DNA of 64,000 nt from positions 1,240,001 through 1,304,000 of the forward strand of contig NZ_CP080575.1 in NCBI RefSeq assembly GCF_019575955.1. The letters run 5' to 3'. Origin of the DNA: Nesterenkonia pannonica (GTDB lineage Bacteria > Actinomycetota > Actinomycetes > Actinomycetales > Micrococcaceae). Position numbers and translations under genes: made by a program. The notes below the pieces were generated by a model. The model ran no database searches. It had not been told where the DNA came from and saw only the letters and a list, made by a program, of their open reading frames with translations. Shown one piece after another: positions 2,772-63,666 of this stretch (position 1 is the stretch's first letter; each line of letters opens with the position of its first letter).

Positions 2772-3413
2772 ATGGCTGACAAACTCCTCCTGCGCGCAGA
2801 GGTGCGCACCGAATTCGGCAAGGGCGCCGCCCGCCGAGCCCGCCGCGCGAACCAGATCCCCGCAGTCATCTACGGCCACGGCGACGAGCCGCGCCACGTC
2901 CTCCTCGAGGGCCACGCCACGATGCTGGCAGTCCGCAACCCCAACGCTCTGATCACCCTCGACATCGAGGGTGAGGACCAGATGGTGGTTCCGAAGGACA
3001 TCCAGCGTGAGGCGCTTCGCCCCTTCATCGTCCACATGGACCTTCTCGCGGTGCGAAAGGGCGAGAGGATCGTCGTCGATGTCCCCGTCGAGGTCATCGG
3101 TGAGCCCGCACAGGGCCTCGAGCACATGCTCGACCAGGTCACCGTGCCTGTTGAGGCGGATGCCACGGCGCTGCCCGAGTCCGTCAGCATCGACATCACC
3201 GACCGCGACGAGAACGCTCTGCCCGAGCACCTCATCCTGCCTGCTTACTCCGAGCTGCAGCTCGACGACATGGAATCTCCCATCGTCACCATCTACGAGC
3301 CGCAGGAGCAGGACACTGAGTCCGACACCGAGACGACCGGCGATGAGCCCCAGGAGGGTGACGAAACCTCTGAGGGTGACGCCGGCGAGGAAGACGCCGA
3401 CGACTCCGAGTGA
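2772..3413 (+). CDS. rplY: 50S ribosomal protein L25 (general stress protein CTC type)
   Basis: Binds 5S rRNA in the large ribosomal subunit. The frame is intact from ATG 2772, 5 bases after AAGGA. The N-terminal 5S-binding domain holds EVRTEFGKGAARRARRANQI, PAVIYGHG and LITLDIEGEDQMVVPKDIQR. The CTC-type beta domain follows (VDVPVEVIGEPAQGLEHMLD, LPESVSIDITDRDENALPEH) and a very acidic tail of about 40 residues ends in DADDSE. The long acidic tail is common in actinobacterial L25 and also suits a salt-tolerant cell. The segment LPAYSEL near residue 155 contains one of the GCTTAC anomalies and would read LPAGSEL if restored. It forms a pair with pth 20 bases downstream. Confidence 0.95.
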   Translation: MADKLLLRAEVRTEFGKGAARRARRANQIPAVIYGHGDEPRHVLLEGHATMLAVRNPNALITLDIEGEDQMVVPKDIQREALRPFIVHMDLLAVRKGERIVVDVPVEVIGEPAQGLEHMLDQVTVPVEADATALPESVSIDITDRDENALPEHLILPAYSELQLDDMESPIVTIYEPQEQDTESDTETTGDEPQEGDETSEGDAGEEDADDSE

Positions 3414-3433
3414 GTCTTCGGCAGCCTGACTGA

Positions 3434-4007
3434 ATGGCGTCAGAAGCCTGGCTGATAGCGGGCCTCGGGAACCCCGGGGCCCGCTATCAGCGTACCCGGC
3501 ACAATGTCGGGCAGATGGTCCTCGATGAGCTTCTCGACCGGCTCGGCGCGTCCTACAGCCGCACCAAAGTAGGTGCCAAGGCAGTAGGTGCGCAGCTGCC
3601 GGACGGCCCGAAGCTGGTCTTCGCCGTCAGCGAGGGCTACATGAACGAGTCGGGGAAGCCCCTGCGCGGACTGATGGACTATTTCAAAGTGGATCCGCAT
3701 CGGCTGGTCGTCGTGCATGACGAGGTCGACCTGCCCTTCGGCCGCCTGAAGCTCAAGCGCGGCGGCTCCGAGGGCGGTCACAACGGTCTGAAGTCCATCA
3801 CGCAGCATCTGGGCGGAAACAGAGACTACATCCGAGTGCGGGCAGGAGTCGGCCGCCCCCGGGCCAGATGGACACGGCTGCCTACGTTCTGCAGCCCTTC
3901 AGCGCGGACGAGGGGCGAGACCTCCCGAGTTCGTGTCCCGCACGGCAGACTCGGTCGAAGCGATCGTCACCGAGGGCCTCGACCGGGCCATGAACAGCTT
4001 CCACTAG
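3434..4007 (+). CDS. pth: Peptidyl-tRNA hydrolase
   Basis: Releases tRNA from peptidyl-tRNA that drops off the ribosome. The N-terminus has WLIAGLGNPGARYQRTRHNV, containing the GNPG motif, the conserved Tyr, and the Asn and catalytic His of the RHNVG motif. Later come YMNESGKPL, VVHDEVDLPFG and GGSEGGHNGLKSI, all diagnostic for Pth. A frame break near 3860 leads to GQMDTAAYVLQPF and the C-terminal helix, ending at TAG 4005-4007. Length restored is about 190 residues, which is typical. The rplY-pth arrangement is classic in actinobacteria. Confidence 0.95.
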
Positions 4008-4024
4008 GTCAGGCCGCGAGGGCG

Positions 4025-7585: not shown

Positions 7586-8625
7586 CGGTGGCCTCCTGGT
7601 CAGCGTCGTGGTCCTCGCGCGCAGCGGCGTCCGCGGCCAGCAGCTCGGCAGTCGTGAGCTCGGCGTGCAGTCCGGCGCCGCTGAGGACCTCCACAGCACG
7701 CTGCGCCAGCTCCGTGCTCCCGGGGCGCAGGTGAAGCTACCACCTGACGGCCGCTGATGGTCTCGATGGTTCCGGCCTCGATCCGCGTGGGCAGGCCGTG
7801 CTCGGTCAGGAGGCCGAACAGGTCGCCGAGGCTGCGGATCTGCTCAGTCTCGGCCACGCGCACCTCGACGAGCTGCTCCCGGGGCTGATGCCCGCGGTGG
7901 GCGGAAGTGAGATCAGCTCTTTGGACAGCGGGGAGCTGGCATCCGAGATGACGTCGAGGAGCTGGCCGCTGCGCACGATCCTGCCGTCCTCCAGCAGGGA
8001 GACCCCGTCGCAGATCTCACGGACCACCGACATCTCATGGGTGATGATGACGACGGTGATTCCCAGCCGATCCCGCAGCTCACGGATGAGCTGAAGGATC
8101 TGGCGGGTGGTCGAGGAGTCCAGCGCGGAGGTGGGCTCGTCGCATATGAGGACGCGAGGTTCGGCTGCCAGGGCGCGCGCGATCCCGACCCGCTGCTTCT
8201 GCCCCCGGAGAGCTGCGCGGGATAGTTGCTTAAGCACGATCGGAGAGCCCGACCAGCTCGAGCAGCTCCGCCGTGCGGCGCCTGCGCTGGGCGCGCGGCA
8301 TCCCGGCCACCTCCAAGGGGTGGGCGATGTTCTGCTCAGCAGTGCGGGAGTCCAGCAGATTGACGTGCTGGAAGACCATGCCGATGCTTCGGCGTGCCTG
8401 ACGCAGGCGGCGCCCGCGCGCGCCGCCGATGTCTGTGGAGTCGATGCTGATGGAGCCGCGGGTGATGCGTTCGAGGCCCGTGAGGCACCGGATCAGTGTC
8501 GACTTTCCCGCGCCGGAGCGGCCGACGATCCCGTGGATCTCTCCTGCCCCGATGCGCAGGGACACCTCGTCCAGTGCTGTGACCCTGCCGGGGTAGACCT
8601 TGCTGACGTCAGCCAGGGTGATCAA
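7572..8625 (-). CDS. metN: Methionine ABC transporter ATP-binding protein
   Basis: ATPase subunit powering methionine uptake. I place the start at TTG 8625 (product begins with fMet-ITLADVSKVYPG) because AGGAG lies about 9 bases upstream and the MetN family begins here. Walker A is GRSGAGKST, the Q-loop lies in GMVFQHVNLLDSRT, the signature is LSGGQKQR, Walker B is LICDEPTSALD, and the H-loop His is in VVIITHEMSVVREI. Two defects sit side by side: an 8-base GCTTAAGC at 8228-8235 where the family has Ala-Gly (restores RAGNYPAQ), and a missing base in the signature near 8205. Further breaks near 7885 and 7735 lie in the C-terminal regulatory ACT-like domain, which in E. coli MetN binds methionine and inhibits transport. 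Confidence 0.9.
8228..8235. other. GCTTAAGC anomaly in metN
   Basis: Eight bases replace what should be six. Putting GCCGGC here restores the frame and gives DRAGNYPAQLSGGQ, the expected lead-in to the ABC signature. Confidence 0.7.
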
Positions 8626-14218: not shown

Positions 14219-14919
14219 TCAGTAGGCGTTCTCGGCAGAGTCGTGCGTCTGGGCACCTACGATATCAAGGGAAGCACTGGCGCCGAGCCTGGTGGCGCCC
14301 GCGTCGAGCGCCCGCACCGCATCAGAGTAGGTGCGTATTCCTCCGGAGGCCTTGATGCCGAGGCGTCCCCCACCTCTTCGTGCATCAGGGCGAGGTCCTC
14401 GACGGTGGCGCCGCCGCTTACGAATCCCGTGGAGGTCTTCACGAAGTCTGCGCTTACTGCCTCAGCTGCTCGGCAGACCAGCCGCTTGGCCTCCTCGGAG
14501 AGCAGCGCCGTTTCGAGGATGACCTTGAGAATCGCTCCGCCGTCGTGGGCCGCGCGTGCGACCGCGTCGATCTGGGCCTGCACTTCGGTATGAAGCCCGG
14601 CGTTGGCGTCGGCGATGTCCACGACCATATCGATCTCGGAGGCCCCGTTGAAGACTGCCTCGTCCGTCTCCGCGACCTTCGCGGCTGTGGTGGTGGCCCC
14701 GAGCGGGAAGCCCACCACGGTGCAGGTTCTGACGCCGCTTCCCCTCAGCTCCTCCGTCACGAGGCGGACCCAGCGCGGGTTGATGCATACGGCGGCGAAG
14801 CCGTGCTCGGCTGCCTCCCGAGCGGTGCGCCGGATCGCCTCCTCCGCGGCGTCGGCCTTGAGCAGAGTGTGGTCGATCAGCGCGCCCACGGCGGCAGGAG
14901 AGAGTGCTGCATCTGTCAT
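14219..14919 (-). CDS. deoC: Deoxyribose-phosphate aldolase
   Basis: Class I aldolase splitting 2-deoxyribose-5-phosphate into glyceraldehyde-3-phosphate and acetaldehyde. Visible motifs are [74 protein letters not shown] and DFVKTSTGF, where the last Lys forms the Schiff base and the Lys of LKVILET assists. A frame break near 14365 precedes the C-terminal [20 protein letters not shown], the phosphate-binding part. Two GCTTAC anomalies (14416 and 14452) turn [19 protein letters not shown] into Ala-Val-Ser and Val-Ser. It is 3 bases from the phosphosugar mutase stop, so the genes are an operon for nucleoside sugar salvage. Confidence 0.95.
14416..14457. other. Two GCTTAC anomalies in the deoC active-site loop
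   Basis: At 14416-14421 and 14452-14457 the minus strand reads GTAAGC (Val-Ser). GCCGGC would give Ala-Gly in both, matching the [13 protein letters not shown] pattern of DeoC. Confidence 0.7.
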
Positions 14920-17712: not shown

Positions 17713-19179
17713 TCAGTGGTCAGCCGGGTCGGTGATTTTATAGTGCAGACGGCGGGCAGCCTCTGACAGGGATCCCGTGAGTGAAGGATAGACCGTGAAG
17801 GTCGAGGCGATGTCATCGACGTGGAGCTTGTGCGTCACTGCCAAGGCCAAGGAGTAGATCAGCTCCGACGCGCGCGGTGCGACGATCACGGCGCCGATCA
17901 CGGTGCCGGATCCCTTGCGGGAGAAGATCTTGACGAACCCTCCTTGATGTTCATCATCTTGGCGCGCGGGTTGGTCGCGAGGTCCAGCTTCACGACGTCG
18001 GCCTGGTACGTTCCGGAGTCCACCTGCTCCTGCGTCACCCCGACGGTGGCGATCTCCGGCGAGGTGAAGACATTCGACGCCACAAGGTGCATCTTCAGCG
18101 GCTTCACCGCCCCGCCCTGCATATGGGCCACTGCGATGCGGCCCTGCATCGCAGCCACGGATGCCAGCGGCAGCATGCCGGTGCAGTCGCTTACGGCGTA
18201 CACATTGGTTGCGGTGGTGCGAGAGACGGTGTCCACGCGGATGTGTCCGGACTGTGTCAGTTCGATGCCCGCCTCCTCGAGGCCAATGCCCACGGTGTTG
18301 GGCACCCCGCCGACCGCCATCAGGCAGTGCGAGCCTTCGAGAGTCTCCTCCTGTCAGTGTGACCCTGACGCCGTGCTCGGTGCGCTCCACGGACTCCGCC
18401 CGGGTCCTCGATGCAACCTTCACGCCGACTCTGGCGAAGGAGTTCTCCAGCACAGCGGCCGCGTCGGAATCCTCCCCAGGAAGCACCTGATCGCGCGAGG
18501 AGACAAGGGTGACGGCGGCGCCCAGGCGTCGGTAGGCGGATGCGAACTCGGCGCCCGTGACGCCGGATCCCACCACGATCATGTGCTCGGGCGGCTCCTC
18601 GAGGCTGTAGGCCTGGGTCCAGTTCAGAATGCGTTCGCCGTCGGGCTTCGCCGAGGGGAGCTCGCGCGGCGTCGCACCGGTGGCGACGATGACCGCGTCA
18701 GCCTCCACCTCGGCGGTGCCGCCTGAGGAGCAGCTGACCTCCAGGGTGTGCACCCCGTTCTGCGCCGGTCCCTTGAGCCGCCCGCGGCCTGGGATGATGT
18801 TGACGCCGAACGCCTGAGGGAGGCGTGGATGTCCTCGGACTGAGTCTCGGCCAGCTTCAGCAGGCGCCTGTTGACCTGCGAGAAGTCCGCCCAGGCCTCC
18901 GTCTCGTACTGGTCCCTGCCCCTTCGCCGAAGCGCACGCCGAAGGACGTGGAGGCGTTGACCCGCCGCATTGCGTCAGCGGTGGCGATGAGCGTCTTGAC
19001 GGCACGACGTCGGTCAGGACCGCGGAGCCTCCCAGCCCCTTCTCCTCGATGATGGTGACTTGGGCCCCAGCGTCTGCAGCGACCATGGCCGCCTCGTAGC
19101 CGCCCGGACCTCCTCCGAGGATCGCAACACGGGCAGGGGCAAAGCGCTTACCTAGAGTCTCTGAAGTCACCCGCCCCAT
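17713..19179 (-). CDS. lpdA: NAD(P)H-quinone dehydrogenase / LpdA-type flavoprotein disulfide reductase homologue
   Basis: FAD- and NAD(P)-binding protein of the dihydrolipoamide dehydrogenase superfamily. FAD site RVAILGGGPGGYEAAMVAAD; NAD site MIVVGSGVTGAEFASAYRRL; second FAD motif VYAVSDCTGMLPLASVAAMQ; dimerisation domain VASNVFTSPEIATVGVTQEQ and TFTVYPSLTGSLSEAARRL. The N-terminal helix reads EEKGLGGSAVLTDVVPSK: the two redox-active cysteines of true lipoamide dehydrogenases are absent, as in mycobacterial LpdA (Rv3303c), which reduces quinones. The Val-Ser at AVSDCTG stems from a GCTTAC anomaly (18189) and should be AAGDCTG. Several frame breaks (near 19010, 18830, 18350, 17945) were crossed. 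Confidence 0.85.
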   Translation of the reverse strand: MGRVTSETLGKRFAPARVAILGGGPGGYEAAMVAADAGAQVTIIEEKGLGGSAVLTDVVPSRRSSPPLTQCGGSTPPRPSACASAKGQGPVRDGGLGGLLAGQQAPAEAGRDSVRGHPRLPQAFGVNIIPGRGRLKGPAQNGVHTLEVSCSSGGTAEVEADAVIVATGATPRELPSAKPDGERILNWTQAYSLEEPPEHMIVVGSGVTGAEFASAYRRLGAAVTLVSSRDQVLPGEDSDAAAVLENSFARVGVKVASRTRAESVERTEHGVRVTLTGGDSRRLALPDGGRRGAQHRGHWPRGGGHRTDTVRTHPRGHRLSHHRNQCVRRKRLHRHAAAGIRGCDAGPHRSGPYAGRGGEAAEDAPCGVECLHLAGDRHRRGDAGAGGLRNVPGRRREAGPRDQPARQDDEHQGGFVKIFSRKGSGTVIGAVIVAPRASELIYSLALAVTHKLHVDDIASTFTVYPSLTGSLSEAARRLHYKITDPADH

Positions 19180-25674: not shown

Positions 25675-25678
25675 GCGG

Positions 25679-26918: not shown

Positions 26919-26958
26919 GGCAGCGTGTGCACAGGCTCCCGGACGGGGGCAGGCGGCC

Positions 26959-43321: not shown

Positions 43322-43397
43322 CGGCTACCAGCATCGTCAAGAGGTGCAGGAAACCTCAAGAGACCCCGTCGAGGCATAGTTCGCACAGAGAGTTCAC

Positions 43398-44641: not shown

Positions 44642-44712
44642 GCCAGCAGTCTTCCACAGCAGAGACCGGGCCGGGGCTGGGCCGACCGCCGCAGCTGATC
44701 TACGCTTCACCC

Positions 44713-45364: not shown

Positions 45365-45382
45365 AAGCGGTGAGAAGCCGAG

Positions 45383-45404
45383 ATGGACTCCGGATGGGGT
45401 CCAT
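45383..45404. terminator. Hairpin between SDR and permease genes
   Basis: ATGGACTCC (45383-45391), loop GGAT, GGGGTCCAT (45396-45404): a 9-bp stem with one wobble pair, between the ends of two convergent genes. It is shorter than the other hairpins here. Confidence 0.5.
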
Positions 45405-45437
45405 TGCTGATGCTCGGGGCATCGCTCGAGCGGTCGG

Positions 45438-47583: not shown

Positions 47584-48588
47584 TGGTCTCCGGCAGTCTC
47601 GACCGCTGTCTCGCTGAGGTATTCGATCCACTGCGTCGCCGAAGCGGGGCCGCCGTAGATCCAGATGCCGTCCACGGGGTGCATGGCATCGTTCTCCACG
47701 AATCCCAGGGAGTTCCATACGGAGTTGCTCTCGAGGGGCCTCGAAGGGATCATCGGGGTCAGACTCCGAGGTCCACCAGTACAGGATGGCGTCCTCGTCC
47801 AGAGCGGTCAGTCCCTCGACGTCTGCCTGGCTGATGTCATACGCCTCGTCGCCTTCGTCCTGCCACGCGGATTCGAGTCCGATCTCCGTTCCGAGGGTCT
47901 GAGCCAACGCGCCGGGACCATGCATGCGGAATGTGGCGGTGTTGCCTTCCACCGTGGGGTAGACCAGGACGAAGGGTGTTCCTTCAGCGCCCGCGTCGGC
48001 TATGGCGTCGGCCGCGGTGTCCCGGGCATCCTCGAATTCCATCCAGGCCTCATCGGCTCGGTCCTGCGCACCGAGAAGCTCAGCGGTCATGAAGAAGTTG
48101 TCCTGCATGTTGCCGAGGGGGTCAGACGCCTCGGCGCCGGGCTGCAGCACGACGGGCGCGATCTCTTCGATATCCTCCAGAAGGCCGTCCGGGACGGAGC
48201 TGTCAGCGCCGAGAATCAGGTCAGGGTCGGCCTGGCCGATGGCCTCCAGACTGGGTTCGGTGCGCAGCCCCACATCGGTGGCGTCGTCATCCACTGAAAC
48301 TGCTGTGGCCCACGCTTCGTAGCCCTCGAGGTCTGCGACTCCGACGTGAGTGCCGCCGAGCGCCTCCACGTTCTCAGTCTGCGCCCATTCGAGGGTGACC
48401 ACGCGCTGGGCGGGGGCGTCCAGCGTGATCTCCTCGCCTCGGTAGTCCGTCACGGTGACCGGCGCGGACTCTGCGGGCTCGGAGTTACTTTCCGCCTCGT
48501 CGACTTCGGTGGTGCCGCAGGCAGTCAGACCGAAGACGGCGACGGCTGAGGCCGCGGCCGCGCCTCGCAGGCGCTGTGGAAGGTTCAT
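47580..48588 (-). CDS. Iron-siderophore ABC transporter substrate-binding lipoprotein
   Basis: Class III periplasmic-binding-type lipoprotein. ATG 48588 after GAAAGGA. Signal peptide with lipobox LTAC. The N-lobe has VTVTDYRGEEITLDAPAQRV, VTLEWAQTENVEALG and PSLEAIGQADPDLILGADSS. The C-lobe has APVVLQPGAEASDPLGNMQ and VDGLTALDEDAILYWW-like segments. A break near 47730 precedes the ending WIYGGPASATQWIEYLSETA. The pattern NIxGL/PDLI fits FhuD/FepB-type ferric hydroxamate or catecholate binding. Second gene of the operon after the ATPase. Confidence 0.9.
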
Positions 48589-48653
48589 GGTGGGCAGGGG
48601 TCCTTTCGGTCACGGGTATGGCTTGGGGGTGAAGGTGCGGTCGGCGGTGAGGC

Positions 48654-49498
48654 TCAGGCGGACAGCAGAACCGGCTCTGCTGCGCCGTGCTGCTGATGCG
48701 GGTGCCGCGCCCGGCGCGACGGGCGCGGACAGCGAGCCCGCCCTGAGGCATGGGCAGCACATCGATGCGCACGCCGAAGATCTCAGTGAGCCTGTCGCCC
48801 GTCATGACTTCTGCTGGAGCGCCAGAGGCAACAATGCGTCCTCGGAGACGAGGATGACGCGGTCCGCGATGTCGGCGGCCTGCTCCAAGTCATGCAGGAC
48901 CACCCCTATGGTCAGACCGTGCTGATCGGCCAAGTCGCGAATCAGGTCCAGCAGGCTCATCTGGTGCTTGAGGTCCAGGAACGTGGTGGGCTCGTCCAGC
49001 AGGAGGACGTCCGTCTCCTGGGCCAGGCAGGCGGCCAGCCACACGCGCTGCAGCTGCCCCCGGAGAGCTGGGTGACCGGGCGGTCACGCAGCGCCTCAAG
49101 TCCGGTCAGCCGAATGGCGCGCTCCACGGCCCGCTGGCTCTGGGCGTCTGCACGGCTGAACTGCTTCCGGTGCGGGTGCCTGCCGAGCTCAACAATGTCG
49201 GAGACGGTCAGGCCGCCGGGGTGGGGCGCTGCTGGGCGAGGATCGTGAGACGTTTGGCAAAGGCCCGCGGGGAGAGTGCAGAGGTGTCGTCCCCGTTGAG
49301 TGTGACGGTCCCAGTGGTGTCGGCCAGCCTGCAGATGCCGCGCAGCAGCGTGGACTTGCCGCTGCCATTGGGTCCGATGAGCGCCGTGACGGTGCCGGGG
49401 GTCAGTTCGACGTTCGCGTCCACGACTACGGACGCGGCCCCATAGGACACCGACACTGACTCTGTCCGAAGCGCAGGAGGAGCGTGATGATTTTGCAC
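48654..49498 (-). CDS. Iron-siderophore ABC transporter ATP-binding protein
   Basis: FecE/FepC-type ATPase, first gene of the operon. GTG 49498 gives QNHHAPPALRTESVSVSYGA. Walker A is LIGPNGSGKSTLLRGI, the Q-loop is RLTILAQQ, the signature LSGG lies in DRPVTQLSGGQLQRVW after a frame break near 49060, Walker B is VLLLDEPTTFLDLKHQ and the H-loop is IGVVLHDLEQAADIADRVIL. Breaks near 49220 and 48825 were crossed. The C-terminus EVMTGDRLTEIFGVRIDVLP is family-typical and the likely stop is at 48654. No clear ribosome site is seen, so translation may be leaderless. Expression is probably iron-repressed through the box at 49522. Confidence 0.9.
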
Positions 49499-49521
49499 AT
49501 CTGAATGTTAACAAAAGGAAA

Positions 49522-49540
49522 GAAGGCTTGCCTCACCTAA
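49522..49540 (-). promoter_or_regulatory. IdeR/DtxR-type iron box
   Basis: On the minus strand the 19 bases TTAGGTGAGGCAAGCCTTC match the DtxR/IdeR consensus TTAGGTTAGGCTAACCTAA at 14 of 19 positions. The site lies 24-42 bases upstream of the ATPase start codon, where it would block transcription when iron is plentiful. Confidence 0.8.
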
Positions 49541-49632
49541 TTCGCTGACATGGGTGGGTCTCCGGGAGTCAGCGCCCCATGCGTCGCCTCGCGTCAGGCC
49601 AAAGGACTGGGCGCCGAGGCTCCTGCGCTCCT

Positions 49633-50397
49633 TCAGAACAGCGGCCAGGGAACCGCGGGCATCCCTGCGGGGAGCTGGGAACCGTGCTTCTGAGCGAAGC
49701 GCCGCGCAGCGCTCAGCGAGCGACGCGATCTCTTCGTCAGTCAGCAGCTCCGCGAGGTCGCGGCCCAGCTCGCCCTGGAGCCCTTCGCTCACGCAGTCAA
49801 TACCCTCAAGTTCCTCGGCGGTCAGAGCCTCTCCCAACCACCCCCAGAGGACCGTGCGCAGCTTGTGCTCGCGGTGGAAGGTGAGCCCGTGGTCCACGCC
49901 GTACCTGTGGCCGTCCGCCATGGCGAGTATGTGGTCGCCCTTGCGGTCAGCGTTGTTGACGATCAGGTCGAACACCGCCATGCGCCTCAGCGCTGACGAG
50001 TCCTCATGCACCAGGGTGACCATGCGTCCTTTGTCATCCTGGCCCTGCAGAACATGCTTCCAGCCCGTCTCCGGCGCATGCTCCTCCTCGACCAGGTCGA
50101 CGGCGCTCTGCTCAGGGTCCTGGTCCTGCCACAGCTGCACCATTCCTCACCCAAAGGGCCGTCGCGCAGCCAGGTGTGCGGAACCACGCCCCAGCCGAGA
50201 GCCTCTGAGACGCGGAAAGCGGCCACCTCCCGCTGCGCCAGGCAGCCGTCGGGGAAGTCCCACAGGGGAGTCTCACCGTCTATCGGCTTATAGACAACGA
50301 GCGCGTCACCGATGCTGCCCAAAAATGTTGCGTTGGAAGCCGTCCTGATACGACCTGTGAGCGTCAGCTCGCTGGCCATGAGGTCCGTGGCTGACAT
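49633..50397 (-). CDS. SCO1664 family protein (PI3/PI4-kinase-like fold)
   Basis: Conserved actinobacterial protein with a lipid-kinase-like domain; function unknown. ATG 50397 overlaps the DUF3090 stop (TGATG). It reads MASELTLTGRIRTASNATFL, ALVVYKPIDGETPLWDFPDG (kinase-type Lys), EVAAFRVSEALGWGVVPHTW, then after a break near 50140 MVTLVHEDSSALRRMAVFDL, IVNNADRKGDHILAMADGHR and YGVDHGLTFHREHKLRTVLW, where the NNADRK and GVDHG segments are the catalytic and metal motifs of this fold. A second break near 49675 leads to the ending PAVPWPLF with stop at 49633, the usual family end; the uncorrected frame runs on to 49508. Confidence 0.88.
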
Positions 50398-50947
50398 CAG
50401 CCCTCAGGAACGATGCAGGTATGCCCGTCGGCGTCGATCGGGTAGCCGCAGAGCGGGCACGCCGGGCGTCCGGCGCCGACAATCTCATGGGTGCGCTTTG
50501 CGAACGCGCGGGCAGTGCCCACCGGCATTCGCACCACCAGCATTTCGCTGTCGGGCGAGCTGTCCTCATCGGGGCTTCACCGCCCTCATCGCCGTCGGCG
50601 TCCGTGATGGGGTAGGCCTCGATGACGACCTGGGCGGTGGTGGGGTCCCATCCCAGGCTCATAGTGCCGGTGCGGAAGCGCTCCTCGACGGCCTCAAGCT
50701 GGTCATTGTCGACAAGCTCCGGGAGTGCTGGTGGGCACGCTGAACCGGTTGCCCTCCACGCTGATGAGCTGGTCCAAGATCTCATCGATCTTCTCCGCGA
50801 GCAGAGCCGACTGCTGCTTCTCGAGGGCGACGCTCACCATCTGGGTCCCTGCGCGCACCTGCAGATAGAACGTGCGCGCCCCGGAAGGCCGATGGTGCCG
50901 ACGACGGCCCGGTCAGGCCAATCAAAATCGTGAACACGAGCAGGCAT
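50397..50947 (-). CDS. DUF3090 family protein
   Basis: Conserved actinobacterial protein with a C-terminal zinc-ribbon-like end. The start is ATG 50947, because the frame then reads MPARVHDFDWPDRAVVGTIG, the family's opening; after a break near 50885 it continues ARTFYLQVRAGTQMVSVALE and KQQSALLAEKIDEILDQLIS. Further breaks near 50730 and 50565 lead to MLVVRMPVGTARAFAKRTHE and the cysteine pair in RPACPLCGYPIDADGHTCIV, ending PEG. It always travels with the SCO1664 and histidine phosphatase genes in this phylum, often near mycothiol ligase mshC. Biochemical role unknown. Confidence 0.9.
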
Positions 50948-50970
50948 AGCACCATTCTAGGCCTTGCGGG

Positions 50971-51663
50971 TCAATGTGGCTTGTTTCCTGCGCCCCGCCT
51001 ACCGGCGCATCGCCCGACTGGATGCCCTTCGACAGCCACGACAGATCGCCCCCGTCGGTGTTCGTCGCGTGGACGCTCGGCTTACCAGTGCCGTAGCGCA
51101 CAATCGATACGGATGCAGGGCCCACACTGATGCGCTGGAACAGGTCCAGGTGCATGCCCAGGGCGTCGGCCAGAATGGATTTGATGATGTCGCCGTGGCT
51201 GACCGCCGCCCACACGGCCTCGGGTCCGTGCTCGGCTTCGACGGCTGCATCGTGACGGCGGATCGCGGCCACCGACCGAGCCTGCATTGCGGCCATCGAC
51301 TCACCGCCGGGAAAAACGACTGCGGACGGCTGGGACTGCACCAGCGACCACAGGTCCTCGCCCGCGAGATCGGTCAGACTGCGACCCTGCCAGTCGCCGT
51401 AGTCGCACTCGATGAGGTCAGACTCGACCGGTGCGGACGGTGCGCCCGCCTGGCGATCGAGGATGTGCCGGGCGGTCTGCTGACAGCGCTCAAGGGGGCT
51501 GGAGACCACCGCCGCCAGCGGAACGGCCGCGAGCCGCTCGGCGGTGAGAACTGCTTGATCGCGTCCCACCTCGTCCAAGCTGACGCCGCATGGCCCTGCC
51601 TGCCAGCAGCCCCGTGGCATTTGCTGTGGTGCGGCCATGCCGCACGAGAATTGCTGTCGCCAT
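50971..51663 (-). CDS. Histidine phosphatase of the MSMEG_4193 type
   Basis: Phosphomutase-like phosphatase: ATG 51663 gives MATAILVRHGRTTANATG with the RHG motif. After a break near 51600 come LLAGRACGVSLDEVGRDQAV, LAAVVSSPLERCQQTARHIL, LIECDYGDWQGRSLTDLAG and VWAAVSHGDIIKSILADALG, the four active-site blocks of this superfamily. A break near 51005 leads to a stop at 50971. At 51080 GCTTAC changes GTGRPS to GTGKPS. First gene of the three-gene operon with DUF3090 and SCO1664. The substrate is unknown. Confidence 0.9.
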
Positions 51664-51780
51664 CTTGCAAGCTTATCCACGCGGGCGAACAGCGCGTCAC
51701 ACGGTCGGCGTCGCCTCCCTGACGACACGCATAGAGTGGCTCGACAGAGTCCTCATCGCCAGCATGGAGGTCACGACACC

Positions 51781-52495
51781 GTGAGCGCACCGCCGACGTC
51801 CGAACCGACCGAGCAGCCCGGGCGGGTTGAGACGGCCGAGAATCTCGCCGCCAGGCTTGACCGCCCCATGGGAGTCCTCGGGGTGCTGTTCCTGTTCGTG
51901 TTGCTCGGGCAGCTGCTCGTGACAGAGCCCACCTGGAGCCGCGCCCTGACCATCACAGGGTGGATGTTCTGGATCGTCTTCGTCGCCGAATTCATCCTGC
52001 GTGCTTACATCGCGCGCTTCCAAGCAGCGTTCTGGCGGCGTAACTGGTGGCAGGTGATCTTCCTCCTCGTACCCTTCCTGCGATTCGTCAGAGCGCTGCA
52101 GGCTGTGAGGCTGCTGCGCGTCGCACGAGTGGCGCGTGTCGGAAGCATCGTCTCCGCCGGAGTGCGCGGCTCGCGCTCGGCGGGCAGACTGCTGTCGAGC
52201 CGCATCGGATGGCTGGCAGCCGTGACGGGGTGGTCATTCTGGCCTCAAGCCAGCTGCTCTACGCCTTCGAATCGCAGACGAACTACGGCACCGCCCTCTA
52301 CGAAGCTGCGCTGGCCACCGTCACCGGAACGGGCATCACCACTGAGGACCCGCTCTCCAAAGCTGTCCAGCTGGTGCTGGCGGTGTACTCCGTAGGCGTT
52401 TTCGCCACACTCGCTTACTCGCTGGGGCGTTCTACCTTCGCGGCGAACAGTCATCGGACGTCGCCGCGCCGCTTGGTGAATCGGGTGCTGAGTAA
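51781..52495 (+). CDS. Voltage-sensor ion channel-like membrane protein
   Basis: Six-helix ion-channel-like protein of about 238 residues from GTG 51781. S1-S3: LGVLFLFVLLGQLLVTEPTW, WMFWIVFVAEFILRAYIARF. S4 has regularly spaced Arg residues (RFVRALQAVRLLRVARVARV), as in voltage sensors. After a frame break near 52230 the pore half reads VVILASSQLLYAFESQTNYG, ALYEAALATVTGTGITTEDP and LSKAVQLVLAVYSVGVFATL. The place of the K+ filter TVGYG is taken by TVTGTGI. A break near 52425 gives the ending AGSLGAFYLRGEQSSDVAAP and stop at 52495. Selectivity cannot be predicted. Confidence 0.75.
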
Positions 52496-52546
52496 AGTCG
52501 TAACCATCCCTGCTTCCTTGTGCGGGGCCCGAGAGGAGGCGCAGCT

Positions 52547-53783
52547 GTGGAACAAGAGCTTGAGATCGTCATTGAAGGATCCGAGATCGCGGTTATCGGC
52601 GACCCCGTTGACGTGGAGGAGTTCCTCCACGCACAAGGGCTGGACTCTGCCCCATCTCTAGAACTCGACATGCGACGTCTGGGACCTTTGCTGGGCGCGG
52701 GAGGCATGGTCGCGAGACTGGGCTCTGACGTCGCCGAGAACTCGGGACGATGGGTCAAGCTCACCAATGAATCCGCGAAGGCCATGAAAGCGAACGGTCT
52801 CATGCCCACTGGGCAGCATGGTGTCAGCCACGCCATGGTCGGCAAGTCAGGCGAGATCAAGCAATGGCTCCAGGTCGTCAACAAAGCACCAGCGCTCGTG
52901 GGCGGTCCCATGGCGTTGGCGGCCGTAGCGGCGATGATGCAGCAGCGAGCAATGCAGCAGCAGATGGACGAAATCGTCGGCTACCTCCAGCAGATCGACG
53001 CGAAAGTGGAAGAGGTGCTCAATGCGCAGAAGGACACCGTGCTCGCCGACATGACCTCGGTCGAGTCGGTTCTCCGGAAAGCTTTCAACGTGCGTGAGGG
53101 GTCGGGGCAGGTTTCGACATCACGTGGTCGAAGCTGCAGGGTACTGAGCAGGCCATCGACCGCACCCGGGATTACGCAGTACGTCAGTTAAATCGCGTTG
53201 CCGACAAGCTTGCCGATAAGAGTGGGGACTTCGGAAGGACAGCCAAGGCCACCCGCCGAGCTGAGTCTGAGGTCCGTGAATGGTTGGCGGTACTTGCACA
53301 TAGCTGGCGTCTGCAGGAGGCGCTTCATGTTCTTGAACTGGATCGCGTTTTTGAGTCTTCCCGGAGCATCTGGAGGGGCACCGCCAAGGGCTCAAGGCTT
53401 CGCGTGAGCAAGACCTCGAAACGCTCACCCACAGCACCGACAAGCTGCTCAGCCAAATGATGCAGACCATCGAGGCGGCCAACTCCAAAGTACTGCTTCA
53501 CCCTCGAAATTCTCCCGCAGCCGTTCGGTCGAGCAGTCAGCCAGCCCAGGCCCTCCACGAATTTCGTGGCCTGCTCGGGCTAGATCCCGAGATCGACGCC
53601 GAACAGCTCGAAGTGAGGCGGTGGTTCGACGCAGCCGGGGAACGCGCCGAGAGAGCCGTGGATGGAGGGGTCGCAGTAGCCGGTAGGGCGAAGCAGCTTG
53701 GTGCACAGACCGCGGGACGGGCATCCGACGTGGCCAGTAATCTGAGCTCACATATTGCGCGCAGAGGTGACCGCCGGAATTAG
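52547..53783 (+). CDS. Coiled, membrane-touching protein of unknown family
   Basis: About 412 residues from GTG 52547 behind GAGAGGAGG. I do not recognise it. The N-terminal 40 residues (EQELEIVIEGSEIAVIGDPV) look like a small beta domain. A hydrophobic segment follows (APALVGGPMALAAVAAMMQQ), continuing directly into a helix with heptad character (RAMQQQMDEIVGYLQQIDAK, VEEVLNAQKDTVLADMTSVE). After breaks near 53105 and 53370 a second long helical part reads ESEVREWLAVLAHSWRLQEA and HSTDKLLSQMMQTIEAANSK, and the tail is Ala/Gly-rich (AGRAKQLGAQTAGRASDVAS). The architecture recalls membrane-active effectors or stress proteins, but that is only a resemblance. It stands 51 bases after the channel-like gene. 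Confidence 0.65.
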
Positions 53784-53853
53784 AACGCACTCTCGCAGAT
53801 GAGAGTAGGAACGCATATAGACGGTCAGCAGCGCTGAGGGACACACTGAGCGC

Positions 53854-54387
53854 ATGTGGTTCGACTCCTGGTCCGACATTCTGCGCACCCTGCTGGTCGG
53901 CACTGCCGCCTACGTCACGCTGATCGCCGTCCTGCGGCTCACCGGCAAACGCACGCTCGCCCAGCTGAACGCCTTCGACTTCGTCGTGACGGTGGCGCTC
54001 GGCTCCACCCTGGCGACCATCCTGCTCAACGCCGACGTGTCCTGGCTCGAAGGCGCCACCGCCCTCGCACTCCTCGCCGGGCTGCAGTACGCGATGGCGC
54101 TGATGTCCCGTCGTCGCCCGATCGTCAAAAAGGTGATCACCGCCGACCCCGACGTTCTCCTGCTCCACGGGCGCGTGGACCATGAGGCCCTTCGACGGCA
54201 CCGCATGACCGAAAGCGAAATTCGCCACGCGGCCCGACAGGCAGGCACAGGCGACCTCAGCAGAATCGCTGCGATCGTCCTTGAAACCAACGGTGCCTTA
54301 AGCGTCATCAGCGAACAGGAGTGGGGCGACGCCTCAGCCTTGAAAGGCACGAACCTCAGCCCGCGCGCGACGAGCGGACCTGAGTGA
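53854..54387 (+). CDS. DUF421 (YetF-like) membrane protein
   Basis: Intact 177-residue protein. Three N-terminal helices (ILRTLLVGTAAYVTLIAVLR, FDFVVTVALGSTLATILLNA, ATALALLAGLQYAMALMSRR) are followed by the cytoplasmic YetF domain with KKVITADPDVLLLHGRVDHE, and the signature MTESEIRHAARQAGTGDLSR and AAIVLETNGALSVISEQE. ATG 53854. Members are linked to stress or spore physiology in Bacillus, but the molecular function is unknown. CCTTAAGC at about 54296 may be a further GCCGGC misread that does not alter the frame. Confidence 0.93.
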   Translation: MWFDSWSDILRTLLVGTAAYVTLIAVLRLTGKRTLAQLNAFDFVVTVALGSTLATILLNADVSWLEGATALALLAGLQYAMALMSRRRPIVKKVITADPDVLLLHGRVDHEALRRHRMTESEIRHAARQAGTGDLSRIAAIVLETNGALSVISEQEWGDASALKGTNLSPRATSGPE

Positions 54388-54424
54388 GCGCCGCGTTCGG
54401 CCGCCTCCGTTCCGGACGCGCCGA

Positions 54425-55165
54425 CTACAGGGCAGTCTGCGGCGCAGCGAAGACAGTCCTCACCGCAGGCGCATAGAGCACCGATTCCGGCTTCCGGTCC
54501 GCGACGCCCGCGAAGCCTGCGGCCTCCAGGAGGCCATCGTCCAGCCGCAGCAGCTCCGCACGCTGCAGAGGCCACGGCTCATGGTGATTCCGGCAATAGA
54601 TGGTGCGCCCTCTGCGGCGCTCATGGAAGCCCCACCTGGCTGTCAGGAACGTCGACAGCGGATCTCCTGACATCTCGCCCTCGCGGGCACCCTCAGGCGT
54701 GGGTCGGATCGCGAACTCTGAGGCAGCGCTCCTGCGGCCGTGCCGAACCGTTCGGTACGCCACCTCGTCGTCTGTGCGCTCGCGCTTCATCGACGCCCAC
54801 TGGTACCGCAGTCCGAAGGCCGCCCGGGCCACCATCACCGGCACCAGGTGGGATGCCTCCAGGCTCCGGAACACGACGCCGCGCTTACTCTGCGCATCGA
54901 CCGAGTACAGGCGGACGTTCACCTCTGGGAACGAGCCCAGCCACGGGATGCGGGGACCTCCGAAGAATGAGCTGTCAGACATCTGAAAGCCCACGAGGCC
55001 GACCCACGAATCACCGTCGAACACGTCGGCGGAGCAGCCAGGCGGCATAAAGGGCTCCACCGCCTCAGGATCGACCCGCCAATGGAGGAAGACGACATCG
55101 CTCCACCGCTGCCCCAGAATGGCACGGCTTCCCAGCGGCGGCGGCTGTCGAGGCAGATGGTTCAC
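54425..55165 (-). CDS. DUF2071 (YqjF-like) family protein
   Basis: Intact 246-residue cytosolic protein of unknown function. Diagnostic parts: QRWSDVVFLHWRVDPEAVEP, FMPPGCSADVFDGDSWVGLV, GFQMSDSSFFGGPRIPWLGS, FPEVNVRLYSVDAQSKRGVV and FRSLEASHLVPVMVARAAFG. The Ser-Lys-Arg in AQSKRGVV comes from a GCTTAC site (54893) and would be Ser-Arg-Arg. ATG 55165. It is divergent from the nuclease-like gene 52 bases away and shows no frame break. Confidence 0.93.
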   Translation of the reverse strand: MNHLPRQPPPLGSRAILGQRWSDVVFLHWRVDPEAVEPFMPPGCSADVFDGDSWVGLVGFQMSDSSFFGGPRIPWLGSFPEVNVRLYSVDAQSKRGVVFRSLEASHLVPVMVARAAFGLRYQWASMKRERTDDEVAYRTVRHGRRSAASEFAIRPTPEGAREGEMSGDPLSTFLTARWGFHERRRGRTIYCRNHHEPWPLQRAELLRLDDGLLEAAGFAGVADRKPESVLYAPAVRTVFAAPQTAL

Positions 55166-55217
55166 TGCTCACAGCATAGATCAGCACGGCCGGTACAGTA
55201 CGCCGCGGGAGGCCCAC

Positions 55218-56068
55218 ATGGATCAAGCAGACGAAACGCGCAGCCGAAGCCGGACGAGGGACGCACTCTTCGGCCCAGCATCAGCCCCAACGCTGCACGT
55301 GATGACGTGGAACATTCTGGCGGCGCTCGCATGGGCCTGCACTGCGTGCCGCGGATCGGTGGGACACGAGGGCTCCGCACCTGCGGGACCTTCTGCGCGC
55401 AGAGATGCCCACTGTGCTGGGAGTGCAGGAAGCGCTCCCGGACCAAGCCGAGTGGGTGCACGCAGCCCTGGGAGACAGCTACGGCCGAGTGGGCTATGGA
55501 CGGGCGCGCGACGGCGGCGACGAGGCCGCCCCCATCTTCTACGACGCGCAGAGGCTGGAGCTGCTCGACTGGGGCCAGCACGCGCTCTCCCGTAAGCCAG
55601 GCGAACCCGGCTCCAGGTCATGGGGCAGCATGTTTCCGCGCGTCTTCGTTGCCGCATCCTTCCGCGACCGCGACACCGGCATGCGGTTCCAGATGATCAA
55701 CACCCACCTGGACCACCTCTCGGCCTGGGCGCGGCTGATGAGCGCACGTGCCCTGAGCGCCGCCGTGCAGGCTTGCCCCACCCCTCGTTCATCACCGGCG
55801 ATTTCAATACCGGTCCGGCGGCCGCCCCAATGCGGCATCTCCGCGAAGCCGCGCAGATGCGCGATGCGTGGACGCTGCCGAGAGCCGGCACAGCGAGGAA
55901 TGGGGCACATTCTCGCGATATCGGCCGCCTCGGGCCCCCGGCAGACGCATTGACTGGATCCTCGCCTCACCCTCCGTGCGCGTCACCGCAGCGGGGATCA
56001 GCACCGCACGGAACGCCCAGCGGGGATCGGACCACCTGCCTGTTCAGGCGCAGATAGAGTTGCGCTGA
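55218..56068 (+). CDS. Endonuclease/exonuclease/phosphatase family protein
   Basis: Metal-dependent hydrolase with the DNase I/ExoIII fold. ATG 55218 (MDQADETRSRSRTRDALF). TLHVMTWNI holds the metal Asn. After a break near 55330 come MPTVLGVQEALPDQAEWVHA (catalytic Glu in QEA), FYDAQRLELLDWGQHALS, RFQMINTHLDHLSAWARLMS (catalytic His/Asp in NTHLDH), SFITGDFNTGPAAAPM (GDFN motif) and at the end GSDHLPVQAQIEL (SDH motif). Breaks near 55775 and 55880 were crossed. No signal peptide, so it is likely cytosolic. The substrate may be a phosphodiester or sugar phosphate. It carries the only plus-strand GTAAGC variant of the anomaly (55592). Confidence 0.88.
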
Positions 56069-59449: not shown

Positions 59450-60231
59450 GCTCCGGCGCCGGTGCCATCAGGATGTCCCCTCCGGGTCCCCGCCGTCCGA
59501 GGCTCGCGCCCGTCGCGCTCCAGCAGGAAGATGTCGCGGCCGAAGGAGATGAGCAGCAGCGTCAGCGCCCCGCCGGCAAGTGCAGCGGCCAGCCCGGGCG
59601 GCACCACGGGCCCCAGGCCGATGACGACAGCCGTGGCCTGCAGAGCCGCGGCAGTTCGTCGGAACCCGCTGTAGGGCAGCGTCCGTCGCCAGTGCGGGCG
59701 CAGCCAGGTGCCTACTGCGAAGGCATAGCGCGTCAGACCGATGGCCAGGACCCACCACCCGACGGTGAGGGACAGCAGCCCCGAGAGGACCAGCAGCGCT
59801 GCCGCGTCGGACTCGGCATCCAGGCGGGCTCCTCCTCGCTGCCTCGTCCGAGGCGTCGGGCAGCCCACCCGTCGACGGCGTCGAGCAGGGCTGCCGCAGC
59901 GGCGAGGATCAGGACCGTCCACGTTCGGGCTTAAGCAGCGCCCCGGCTGCCGCAAGGACCAGGGCCGCGGTGAGCACGCCGACGATCGCAACACGAAGCA
60001 GGGTGACCCCGTCAGCCGCGGTGACGGTCCGGGGGCGCCGTCGCATGATGGACCAGGCGGCCACTGCGGGGACCAGCAGCGAGGCCGCCATGCTCCACGC
60101 GCCTCCGCCCAGTCTGAGGCGTGCGCCGCGGCAAGGATTGCCGCACCTGCCCCGGCGAGCAGGACCACGGCGGCAGCGGCAGGACCTCCGCGGCCGTCTT
60201 TGGGCCGCGCCGCGGTGCGGCTCGGGCTCAC
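59446..60231 (-). CDS. CDP-alcohol phosphatidyltransferase family protein
   Basis: Membrane enzyme joining a CDP-activated lipid or polyol to an alcohol acceptor. GTG 60231 overlaps the DUF3817 stop (GTGA). Helices: AAAAVVLLAGAGAAILAAAH and, in the shifted frame, GVTLLRVAIVGVLTAALVLA. The catalytic motif is readable after correcting breaks near 59930 and 59830: LLDAVDGWAARRLGR, then EEGARLDAESDAA, matching DGx2ARx7-8Gx3Dx3D. GCTTAAGC at 59929 lies just before it. Four more helices follow (VLSGLLSLTVGWWVLAIGLT, LQATAVVIGLGPVVPPGLAA). About 260 residues. It is second in the operon. Confidence 0.85.
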   Translation of the reverse strand: MSPSRTAARPKDGRGGPAAAAVVLLAGAGAAILAAAHASDWAEARGAWRPRCWSPQWPPGPSCDGAPGPSPRLTGSPCFVLRSSACSPRPWSLRQPGRCLSPNVDGPDPRRCGSPARRRRRVGCPTPRTRQRGGARLDAESDAAALLVLSGLLSLTVGWWVLAIGLTRYAFAVGTWLRPHWRRTLPYSGFRRTAAALQATAVVIGLGPVVPPGLAAALAGGALTLLLISFGRDIFLLERDGREPRTAGTRRGHPDGTGAGA

Positions 60232-60694: not shown

Positions 60695-60813
60695 CAGAGG
60701 AACTCCTTCAAGCAGTGCTGGTGACGGCGATCTGCGGATCAGCTGGCAGCGTCCCAGTCTACCGACCCCGGCTCCGCCGTAGACTGACCGTCACGCCGAC
60801 GCAAGGGAGTGAC

Positions 60814-62076
60814 ATGGACGCTGACGTCATCGTGATCGGAGCGGGCCTCGCAGGCCTGCAGTGCGCTCGCCGCCTCGAGAGTCGGGGGCACCGTGCGACG
60901 GTGCTCGAAGCTTACGACGTCGTCGGCGGCCGAGTGCGCACCGACGAGGTCGACGGGTTCCGCTGCGACCGCGGCTTTCAGGTGCTGAACCCTGCCTATC
61001 CCACGCTGCGCAGGTGGACTGACCTTCCTGCGTTGGGTCTGCAGAGCTTCGGGTCGGCGCGCGCGTGACCACCCAGAGCGACGCCTCCGTCCTCGCGCAC
61101 CCCTGCGCCACCCGGAGCTTCTGCTCTCCACCGTGCGCAGCGAGCATCTGCAGGTCTCTGACGTGCTGGCGCTCGTGCGCTGGATCGGTCCCGCGCTGCT
61201 GAGCGAAGCAGCCGCCTCGCGTCCGAGCCGTGACAGAGCCCTGCGGGCCTCCTTCGACGCGGCAGGATTCACCGGCCCCTGAGACGGAACCTGATGGACA
61301 CCTTCCTGGTTAGCGTCATGGCGGACAGCTCCGGGGAGAAGTCCGCCGACTACGCCCGCATGCTCGTGCGGTGGTTCGCGCTCGGAGCGCCGGGCCTGCC
61401 GGAGAAGGGGATGCAGGCGCTGCCCGAACAGATGGCGTCCAACCTGGCTGAGCTTGTGCGGCTGCGCTCTCCTGCCCGTGAGCTCCACGAGACGGCCGAC
61501 GGCGTCACGGTCACCACGGATGGGGCAGCGCTGCGGGCGCGACTGGCTGTGGTCGCGGTGGGCCCCGAGCATGTCGCAGACCTGACCGCCCTGCCTGCGC
61601 CGGTGACTCACGGGCTCACGACCTGGTGGTTCCGCGCCCTGAGCCGCCGGGAGGCGGGACGTTCCTCACTGTGGATGCGTCCGCCGGGCGGCGGGCCTGC
61701 AGGCCCCGTATGGAACACGGCCGTGGTCTCGGAGGCAGCGCCTTCCTACGCGCCCCGCGGTGAGCACCTGGTGCAGGCCACAACCCTGCTGGATCAGCCG
61801 ACCGGCCTCGCCGACGAGGCCGCCGTGCGCAGGGATCTCGAGAGGATCTACAGGACCTCAGCTCGACGCTGGGAGCTGCTGACCCACCATGTGGTGCCGC
61901 ATACCCTGCCGGGACAGCCGCCGCCGCTGAGGCGCCATCGTGAGCAGCGGATCAACGATCGCACCCTGATCGCCGGAGACCACCTCGACCAAGGATCCAT
62001 CGAGGGCGCAATGGCCTCCGGGGATCGCGCCGCGCGTACGGCTTCCAGCCTTCTCGCGGGAGTGCGGAGAGGGTGA
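60814..62076 (+). CDS. FAD-dependent amine-oxidase-like oxidoreductase
   Basis: Flavoprotein of the amine oxidase/phytoene desaturase superfamily. ATG 60814 opens MDADVIVIGAGLAGLQCARR (dinucleotide-binding motif) and RATVLEAYDVVGGRVRTDEV (second FAD motif; Ala-Tyr here is a GCTTAC site at 60910 and should be Ala-Gly). Then CDRGFQVLNPAYPTLRRW. Breaks near 61065 and 61280 were crossed. The middle has RNLMDTFLVSVMADSSGEKS and YARMLVRWFALGAPGLPEKG, and the C-terminal FAD motif is RTLIAGDHLDQGSIEGAMAS. About 420 residues. The partner gene is a photolyase homologue whose GTG overlaps this stop. Confidence 0.88.
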
Positions 62077-63666
62077 CCAGCTCCTCCGCGGTCCATCTCG
62101 TCCTTCCCCATCAGCTCTTCGAGGAGCAGCTGCAGGCCCCTTCCGGCATGCGCTTCGTGCTGATTGAGCATGACCTGCTCTTCCGGCAGTACGCGTTCCA
62201 CTCCCACAAGCTCGTCCTGCACCGCGCCTCCATGGACCGCTTCGCGCGCTTACTCCGGGGCAGGGCGCACGGTTGATGTGCTGCGCAGCGATGCGCACCT
62301 CAGCTCCCGCCAACAGCTCGCGGCGCTCCTGGAGCGGCTCTGCCGTCGCGGGTCACGCGGTTCGACGTCGTCGACGACTGGTTGGACCAGGACCTCGACG
62401 CCTCTCTTGCTGACGCCGGCATTGCCGCCGCGGAGCAGGAGGTTCTCGAGACCCCTGGGTTCCTCACCGACCGCAGGCAGATCAGCGACTGGCTCAATGA
62501 TCATCCGCTGCGCATGCAGGACTTCTACATCTGGCAGCGCCGCCGCCTCAGCATCCTCGTGACCGATGACGGCGAGCCCGTCGGCGGAGCCTGGTCATTC
62601 GACGAGGAGAACCGCAAGAAGCTGCCGCGCGGCTACACGCCCGCGCCGGTGCAGCGATTCTCTGACCTGTCCCGAGAGCGCCAGCCTACTCTGGACTTCG
62701 AACAGGAGCCGGAGGGTGCCGCAGCAGATCCGCATCAGGACGTCGAGAGAGCCGTGGAGTGGGCGCTGGCAGAGTTCCCGACGCCCCTGGGGACCCGCGG
62801 CTGTTCGCCTGGCCCACCTCGGCAGATGAGGCCGCGGAGCATCTGCGGGAATTCGCGACGCAGCGGCTCAACGACTTCGGGCCCTACGAGGACGCGATCT
62901 CCGCTGAGTTTCCCTTCATCAACCACGGTCTGCTCACTGCGTCGATGAACATCGGACTCCTGGACCCCGGGATGTGCTGCAGGCCGTGCTGGACGCGGCC
63001 GACAGCTCAACCCCACTGGCTTCGGTGGAAGGCTTCGTGAGACAGGTCATCGGGTGGCGCGAATACATGCGGGCCGCCTACATCACTCATGGACGCTCCT
63101 TCGCACCTCGAACCGCCTGAATCACACGCGGCAGCTCGGCCAGGGATGGTGGACGGCCCGCACCGAGCTCGAGCCCTCGACCTCGTCATCGGCCGGGTCC
63201 TGACCACCGGCTACGCCCACCACATCGAACGGCTGATGATCCTCGGCAGCGCCATGTCCCTTCTGCGTGTGCACCCCGATGCGGTCTACGAGTGGTTCAT
63301 GGAGATGTTCATCGATGCCTACGACTGGGTCATGGTGCCCAACGTGTACGCCATGAGCCAGTTCGCCGCAGGCGAGGGATCACCACAAAGCCCTATGTCT
63401 CGGGCAGCAACTACCTGAAGAAGATGTCTGACCTGCCTGCTGGGGAGTGGGCGCAGGATTGGGATGCGCTCTACTGGGCCTTCGTCCGCGACCACCGCGA
63501 CACCCTGTCGTCGAACCCGCGGGCCCAGATGATGGTTGCGATGCTGGACCGGATGGACTCCGAGAAGCGGGCCTCCCACCATGATCGCGCCGATCGTCTG
63601 CTCGCCGGGCAGTCCAGGACCGGCCTGCTCGCCCGGCCCGAAGCCTCGCACCAGCCCGAGGAATGA
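62073..63666 (+). CDS. Cryptochrome/photolyase-related protein (FeS-BCP branch) without Fe-S cysteines
   Basis: Flavoprotein related to bacterial (6-4) photolyases such as Agrobacterium PhrB. GTG 62073 overlaps the oxidoreductase stop by 4 bases. Antenna domain: AVHLVLPHQLFEEQLQAPSG, RFVLIEHDLLFRQYAFHSHK, HKLVLHRASMDRFARLLR and MQDFYIWQRRRLSILVTDDG. FAD domain: FPFINHGLLTASMNIGLLDP, VEGFVRQVIGWREYMRAAYI, RVLTTGYAHHIERLMILGSA and WFMEMFIDAYDWVMVPNVYA, and KPYVSGSNYLKKMSDLPAGE. The positions after MSD normally hold a cluster of cysteines binding [4Fe-4S]; none is present here. Breaks lie near 62255, 62340, 62800, 62965, 63100 and 63380. About 530 residues. Confidence 0.88.

Follow-up and report, generated by a model that had tools for sequence, protein, structure and literature searches.

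GCTTAC in place of GCCGGC in a Nesterenkonia pannonica assembly: a consensus error probably left by a NaeI-linked modification system

We analysed a 64,000-nucleotide stretch of DNA from Nesterenkonia pannonica (the window; positions 1,240,001-1,304,000 of one 2,699,453-base contig, genome label G000) in which the hexamer GCTTAC, or the longer form GCTTAAGC, stands at many places where conserved sequences call for GCCGGC. This swap is an error of the assembly, of a known kind of artefact, and not a feature of the genome. In all likelihood GCCGGC is methylated by a C5-cytosine methyltransferase linked to a NaeI-type restriction endonuclease, was miscalled as GCTTAC by a single-molecule basecaller and was left uncorrected.

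GCTTAC occurs 25 times in the window, against 6.0 ± 2.4 in shuffled sequence (0 of 100 shuffles reached 25), with 24 copies on the plus strand and one, at 55592, on the minus strand; it is the most strand-asymmetric of the window hexamers with at least eight copies. By Markov z-score none of the 4096 hexamers is more depleted than GCCGGC, with 19 copies against 68.8 expected, and GCTTAAGC is found four times (8228, 31976, 34991 and 59929; 0.22 expected). The matching 70 kilobases (kb) of the nearest relative found, G013, which has 77% DNA identity to G000 over a collinear 8.4 kb, hold 155 GCCGGC, no GCTTAC and one GTAAGC. In the whole contig GCCGGC numbers 686, and its ratio to CGGCCG is 0.25, compared with 0.92-1.46 in 29 congeners, of which seven are assembled in 1-3 contigs. 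GCTTAC numbers 1238 (732 on the plus and 506 on the minus strand), compared with 30-544 in the congeners. We also counted the forms in a sample of 464 kb, made up of the window and 20 further stretches of G000, with expectations taken from G013. This sample holds 184 GCTTAC (22 expected) and 123 GCCGGC (849 expected), together with 39 GCTTAGC (3), 32 GCTTAAGC (3), 19 GCCTAAGC (3), 20 GCCTAGC (7) and 328 GCCTAC (273). Since shuffling predicts 6.0 copies in the window and the roughly 2.6 Mb of G013 contain 174, some 4-6 of the window's 25 GCTTAC are probably native, for example that at 19146.

The sequence-only reading, made earlier from the letters of the window, had claimed that GCTTAC stands where proteins demand GCCGGC. 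We compared G013 proteins, from stretches located with an assumed shift of some 179 kb, with G000 by frameshift-tolerant alignment. There were 334 targets, one of which was left out for its length, and 105 of the 333 alignments (the best, non-overlapping ones) were retained, corresponding to 105 genes and 116 kb; among the sampled stretches these proteins covered only the window, L015 and L018-L022, with one target in L016. At the 34 GCTTAC places in well-aligned genes, 12 of them in the window, GCCGGC ranked first of all 4096 hexamers without being assumed (score 331; next TCCGGC, 261), while GCTTAC ranked only 322nd at its own places (score 59). Six of seven control hexamers ranked themselves first, and the seventh has one site only. 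Site by site, with slightly different filters that left 33 places, GCCGGC fitted better than GCTTAC at 30 and equally well at one; in the window alone it was better at 10 of 11 and equal at the remaining one. When the screen was extended to all hexamers found at 10 or more places (1487 classes), 33 classes favoured another hexamer. Only eight of these have large margins (4-10 points per place), and each is an overlapping frame of GCTTAC/GCCGGC; the margins of the rest do not exceed 0.6; the replacement of GCCGGC by GCTTAC is therefore the only systematic substitution visible to the method in the compared stretches. The earlier claim about the proteins thus holds.

The two ribosomal RNA (rRNA) operons, with 16S genes at 1,348,809-1,350,333 (plus strand) and 125,080-126,605 (minus strand), served as an internal control. 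They are 99.0% identical over 5.4 kb and were compared with nine operons of relatives, eight from four congeners and one from an Arthrobacter sp. record; two plasmid records with a matched span above 7.5 kb (L095, L096) were excluded from the alignment. At four sites GCCGGC is present in 9, 9, 8 and 8 of the nine relatives' operons, and the two copies of G000 read GCTTAC/GCCTAGC, GCCTAC/GCCTAC, GCTTAC/GCCTAGC and GTTAC/GTAAGC. None of these eight readings is GCCGGC, and the copies disagree at three of the four sites. At a fifth place, where the relatives have no conserved GCCGGC, the two copies read GCTTAC and GCTTAGC; four further places, with GCCGGC in 6, 1, 1 and 1 of the nine relatives and none in G013, were left uncounted. 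Several different calls of one conserved word across two operon copies are what a reading error would produce and would hardly be seen in real DNA, and the differing calls therefore mark an error of the consensus.

The assembly also carries a broader load of insertions and deletions. The aligned genes contain 312 frameshifts, or 2.7 per kb, with at least one in 95 of the 105 genes, as counted against one relative (G013) and under the chosen alignment penalties. Single-base deletions account for 238 of them, and 120 of these deletions lie within 15 bases of a run of at least four G or four C; of all frameshifts, 140 are near GGGG/CCCC, compared with 63 expected at random places. Runs of six G or C are almost absent, with two GGGGGG in the 464 kb sample against 87 expected from G013. 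This pattern suggests a poorly polished nanopore-type consensus. The estimated completeness of G000 is 62.49%, which probably reflects broken frames, mostly from homopolymer deletions, rather than missing genes, because GCTTA-type forms, all together, lie near only 26 of the 312 events. The sequence-only reading was right that GCTTAAGC shifts the frame, as a +2 shift accompanies each of its eight copies in the aligned genes (8 of the 21 such shifts), but this form explains a small part of the frameshifts, and with 8 of 312 events it was ruled out as their main source. The base-calling artefact proposed by the same reading is borne out by the rRNA copies, which are wrong and mostly different at the motif, by the lack of comparable rewriting in the 1487 classes and by the homopolymer-type indels.

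The orientation of GCTTAC follows the region. Neighbouring copies lie on the same strand in 124 of 163 cases, compared with 90.6 ± 5.7 in 2000 shuffles (maximum 107). Across the window and the five stretches sampled from 1.2 to 1.7 Mb, 65 of 69 copies are on the plus strand. The simplest reading of this bias is that the reads of each strand say GCTTAC and that the consensus takes the locally dominant strand. C or T follows 141 of the 184 GCTTAC, where G013 would predict 44%, and the kept GCCGGC have Y...R flanks in 71%, compared with 32% in G013; the error therefore depends on neighbouring bases. A flank preference as the cause of the strand choice was ruled out, as the plus-strand sites of the window have mixed 3' bases. 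In mixed forms such as GCTTAAGC and GCTTAGC, the miscall of one strand may supply the left half and that of the opposite strand the right half. The changes had been described as identical. Among the words tested the rewriting is specific to GCCGGC, but it comes in several forms, including GCTTAGC, GCCTAGC, GCCTAAGC and GCCTAC, and some GCTTAC are probably native; the mixed forms, the regional strand bias and the larger load of homopolymer deletions had not been seen in the sequence-only reading.

That reading had also supposed a NaeI/NgoMIV-like system outside the window, and a search of the rest of the genome recovered such genes on the contig, between 174.7 and 177.1 kb:

174,687-175,564, plus strand: C5-cytosine methyltransferase gene, in two frame pieces (PF00145, 1.6e-53; TIGR00675 above cut-off)
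175,748-176,548, minus strand: NaeI-family restriction endonuclease gene, convergent to the methyltransferase gene (PF09126, above cut-off; four frame pieces covering 2-267 of the 288 profile positions; PDB relatives 1ev7 and 1iaw)
176,640-177,083, plus strand: Vsr gene, next in the cluster (TIGR00632, above cut-off)

The likeness to the NaeI system (PF09126; 1ev7, 1iaw) thus consists in the family match of the endonuclease and in the adjoining C5-cytosine methyltransferase and Vsr genes; the broken frames and a GCCGGC specificity that is predicted are the differences. NaeI cuts GCCGGC, and we take the specificity of this endonuclease from its family and from the artefact. The same trio of genes is found on the plasmid pROB02 of Rhodococcus opacus B4, with identities of 60% over 230 amino acids for the methyltransferase, 59% over 96 for the NaeI-family endonuclease and 47% over 123 for Vsr. 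On pROB02 the genes have another order and other strands, and the methyltransferase and endonuclease genes are separated by a gene for an HNH endonuclease. NaeI is rare in the genus, being detected with the PF09126 profile in 2 of 30 genomes. The second case, in the congener G001 (L088:7325-8146), is a truncated NaeI gene with undetermined bases beside an open frame that looks Vsr-like by eye, and probably represents a decayed version of this system. G001 was dropped as a NaeI-bearing control on account of this truncation, and no methyltransferase was seen among the 15 open frames listed beside its NaeI gene, which were inspected by eye with no family search. The stretch beside the cluster in G000 (169,789-174,000 of the contig; L080:3789-8000) holds a NERD/UvrD-type helicase gene and two open frames with no Pfam match, and is possibly a defence island.

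Taken together, we propose the following course of events. The chromosome would truly carry GCCGGC at most of the rewritten places, and the C5-cytosine methyltransferase of the NaeI-type system would methylate this word. A single-molecule basecaller untrained on the modified word, most likely a nanopore one, would return GCTTAC on the strand that is read. The consensus would keep the miscall of the locally dominant strand, as GCTTAC or GTAAGC, and elsewhere would mix the miscalls of both strands into GCTTAGC, GCCTAGC and GCTTAAGC, with no later correction. We infer from the genes and the artefact together that the methyltransferase acts on GCCGGC in this strain; the modified base is probably 5-methylcytosine (m5C), and the errors fit a nanopore platform. 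There are precedents for errors of this type. As described in parts of PMC11389150, nanopore assemblies show motif-specific modification errors in which the call at the ambiguous base depends on whether the read is forward or reverse, and whole-genome amplification largely resolves them. Passages of PMC10687267 report low-quality Listeria nanopore genomes with errors at GCAGC or GCTGG, one lineage of which has an extra methyltransferase-encoding system. As far as these parts of the two reports go (PMC10687267, PMC11389150), the errors resemble ours in being specific to strain and motif and in being accompanied by homopolymer indels as the other main error. A table in PMC8565308 gives Aeromonas hydrophila NEB724 as a strain with m5C at GCCGGC. 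Our literature search found no paper that joins GCCGGC, GCTTAC and nanopore, and none that joins GCCGGC, nanopore, basecalling and methylation.

Several observations weigh against methylation by the NaeI-linked enzyme followed by miscalling. In the portions of PMC11389150 and PMC10687267 at hand, the published cases are mismatches such as R/Y ambiguities, whereas G000 rewrites three bases of a six-base palindrome and adds 0, 1 or 2; the size of this rewrite is more than would be expected from plain m5C. The frames of the putatively active endonuclease and methyltransferase are broken in the assembly (four pieces for NaeI, two for the methyltransferase), although broken frames are consistent with an assembly that has 2.7 frameshifts per kb. 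The genome has a second C5-cytosine methyltransferase gene in a prophage-like region at 1.76 Mb, and an N6_Mtase gene (PF02384) at 694191-695212 (L090, L091) in two frame pieces, perhaps of a type I system. Mixed forms are weakly linked to mixed-strand regions (Spearman 0.47, p 0.033, 21 of 23 stretches). GCTTAGC/GCTAAGC carries the expected +1 shift at three of seven places, a -1 shift at one and none at three, and GCTTAC fits better than GCCGGC at 2 of the 33 protein sites. The rRNA copies also differ outside the motif by a few ordinary substitutions and by repeats and homopolymers, and the true identity of the two copies is an assumption.

The large miscall and the second C5-cytosine methyltransferase would fit a modification of GCCGGC other than m5C made by the NaeI-linked methyltransferase, namely one by another enzyme, such as the prophage C5-cytosine methyltransferase, or a bulkier one. 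We consider this unlikely. The site of a NaeI-family enzyme has to be protected by a partner, a C5-cytosine methyltransferase gene adjoins the NaeI gene, and the trio recurs on pROB02. DndC of phosphorothioation (TIGR03183) had no match, in a search with no positive control, as 14 control genomes were also below the cut-off; a genome search likewise found no N4/N6-type DNA methylase of PF01555. It is also quite improbable that the NaeI-linked enzyme itself, or a helper, makes a bulkier or unusual cytosine modification; if it did, this would account for the loss of three bases at once and for the dependence on the 3' neighbour. The prophage-like region mentioned above (about 4600-12800 of L081, which is 1,752,001-1,770,000 of the contig) contains the second methyltransferase gene and weak DNA matches to phage genes such as SSB.

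A failure of the basecaller or polisher at GCCGGC even in unmodified DNA would agree with the many other systematic errors of the assembly. We regard it as very unlikely, since GCCGGC is lost in none of the 29 congeners, which may have been sequenced on other platforms, and other palindromes of the same assembly are not rewritten.

The depletion of GCCGGC in a genome with a NaeI gene might suggest selection against restriction sites, with GCTTAC present by chance. Of 176 well-flanked GCCGGC of G013, eight are kept in G000 and 20 have a TTA/TAA form, so that about seven in ten true GCCGGC sites seem to be miscalled. The two groups together make 28 of 176 (16%). Seven comparator hexamers are kept at 12-28% and have 0-4 TTA/TAA forms, so that GCCGGC matches their conservation and selection against the site is not needed. 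As the full cause of the loss it is ruled out by this match, and the places of GCTTAC want GCCGGC, with one rRNA copy reading a conserved word as GCTTAC and the second reading it as GCCTAGC. Kept and miscalled sites together bring the ratio to about 0.9, the lower end of the genus range, and there may be a slight avoidance of GCCGGC; selection with chance GCTTAC as the whole explanation is extremely unlikely. Hardly any likelihood attaches to a real, genome-wide rewriting of GCCGGC by a mutational or editing process, the sole support of which is the assembled sequence itself, since it would alter conserved rRNA words, shift frames in housekeeping genes and turn one source word into several lengths on both strands.

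The individual sites in the window are as follows (G013 refers to the aligned place in the relative).

3243-3248, plus strand: GCTTAC in the L25 gene (Pfam match); GCCGGC in G013
8228-8235: GCTTAAGC with a +2 frameshift (event at 8230) in an ABC transporter gene (Pfam match), named MetN in the sequence-only reading
14416-14421, plus strand: GCTTAC in a DeoC-family gene (Pfam match); GCCGGC in G013
14452-14457, plus strand: second GCTTAC in the DeoC-family gene (Pfam match); G013 DNA is not GCCGGC here
18189-18194, plus strand: GCTTAC in a pyridine nucleotide-disulphide oxidoreductase gene lying on the minus strand, earlier named LpdA; GCCGGC in G013
19146-19151, plus strand: GCTTAC, probably native, a counter-example; GCTTGC in G013
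25337-25342, plus strand: GCTTAC in the first of two adjoining aminotransferase genes (Pfam match), earlier named AlaA
31976-31983: GCTTAAGC with a +2 frameshift (event at 31981) in a split MFS transporter gene (MFS profile match in two parts)
34991-34998: GCTTAAGC with a +2 frameshift (event at 34992) in a split RmuC gene (RmuC profile match in two parts)
41128-41133, plus strand: GCTTAC in a BCCT transporter gene lying on the minus strand; GCCGGC in G013
47261-47266, plus strand: GCTTAC in the gene earlier named FecCD permease, a name that is unconfirmed; no match in the fetched G013 stretch
55592-55597, minus strand: the sole minus-strand GCTTAC of the window
59929-59936: GCTTAAGC with a +2 frameshift (event at 59930)
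8789, 15643, 19655, 19684, 19970, 21835, 22173, 28665, 28993, 40813, 51080, 52003, 52413, 54883, 60910 and 62248, plus strand: further GCTTAC
3243-62253, plus strand: span of the 24 plus-strand GCTTAC

The motifs that had been noted at 3243, 8228, 14416, 14452, 18189, 25337, 31976, 34991 and 47261 are all present. The gene names given with them agree with Pfam for L25, the ABC transporter, DeoC, the aminotransferase, MFS and RmuC, and a disulphide oxidoreductase was found at 18189, but FecCD is unconfirmed because the open frame at 47004-47834 had no match in the Pfam search. Exact GCCGGC is found in G013 DNA at 4 of the 17 aligned GCTTAC of the window, a number to be expected from the 77% DNA identity. 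Two neighbourhoods deserve a separate remark. About 12 kb of the window (43310-55187) had no match in the collinear 70 kb of G013, the only part of that genome searched, and are perhaps a strain-specific insertion or replacement. The two adjoining aminotransferase genes (24432-26923; both Aminotran_1_2) form a tandem pair, in which each gene matches the other's G013 counterpart with 73-74% identity.

Annotation, pseudogene counts and phylogenies built on the G000 assembly will mislead. The miscall is at the same time probably a readable trace of active modification, in that the assembly alone yields the modified word and then the matching restriction-modification genes. Ranking hexamers against homologous proteins, together with a comparison of rRNA copies, could flag public assemblies of this kind and propose methyltransferase specificities without access to the reads.

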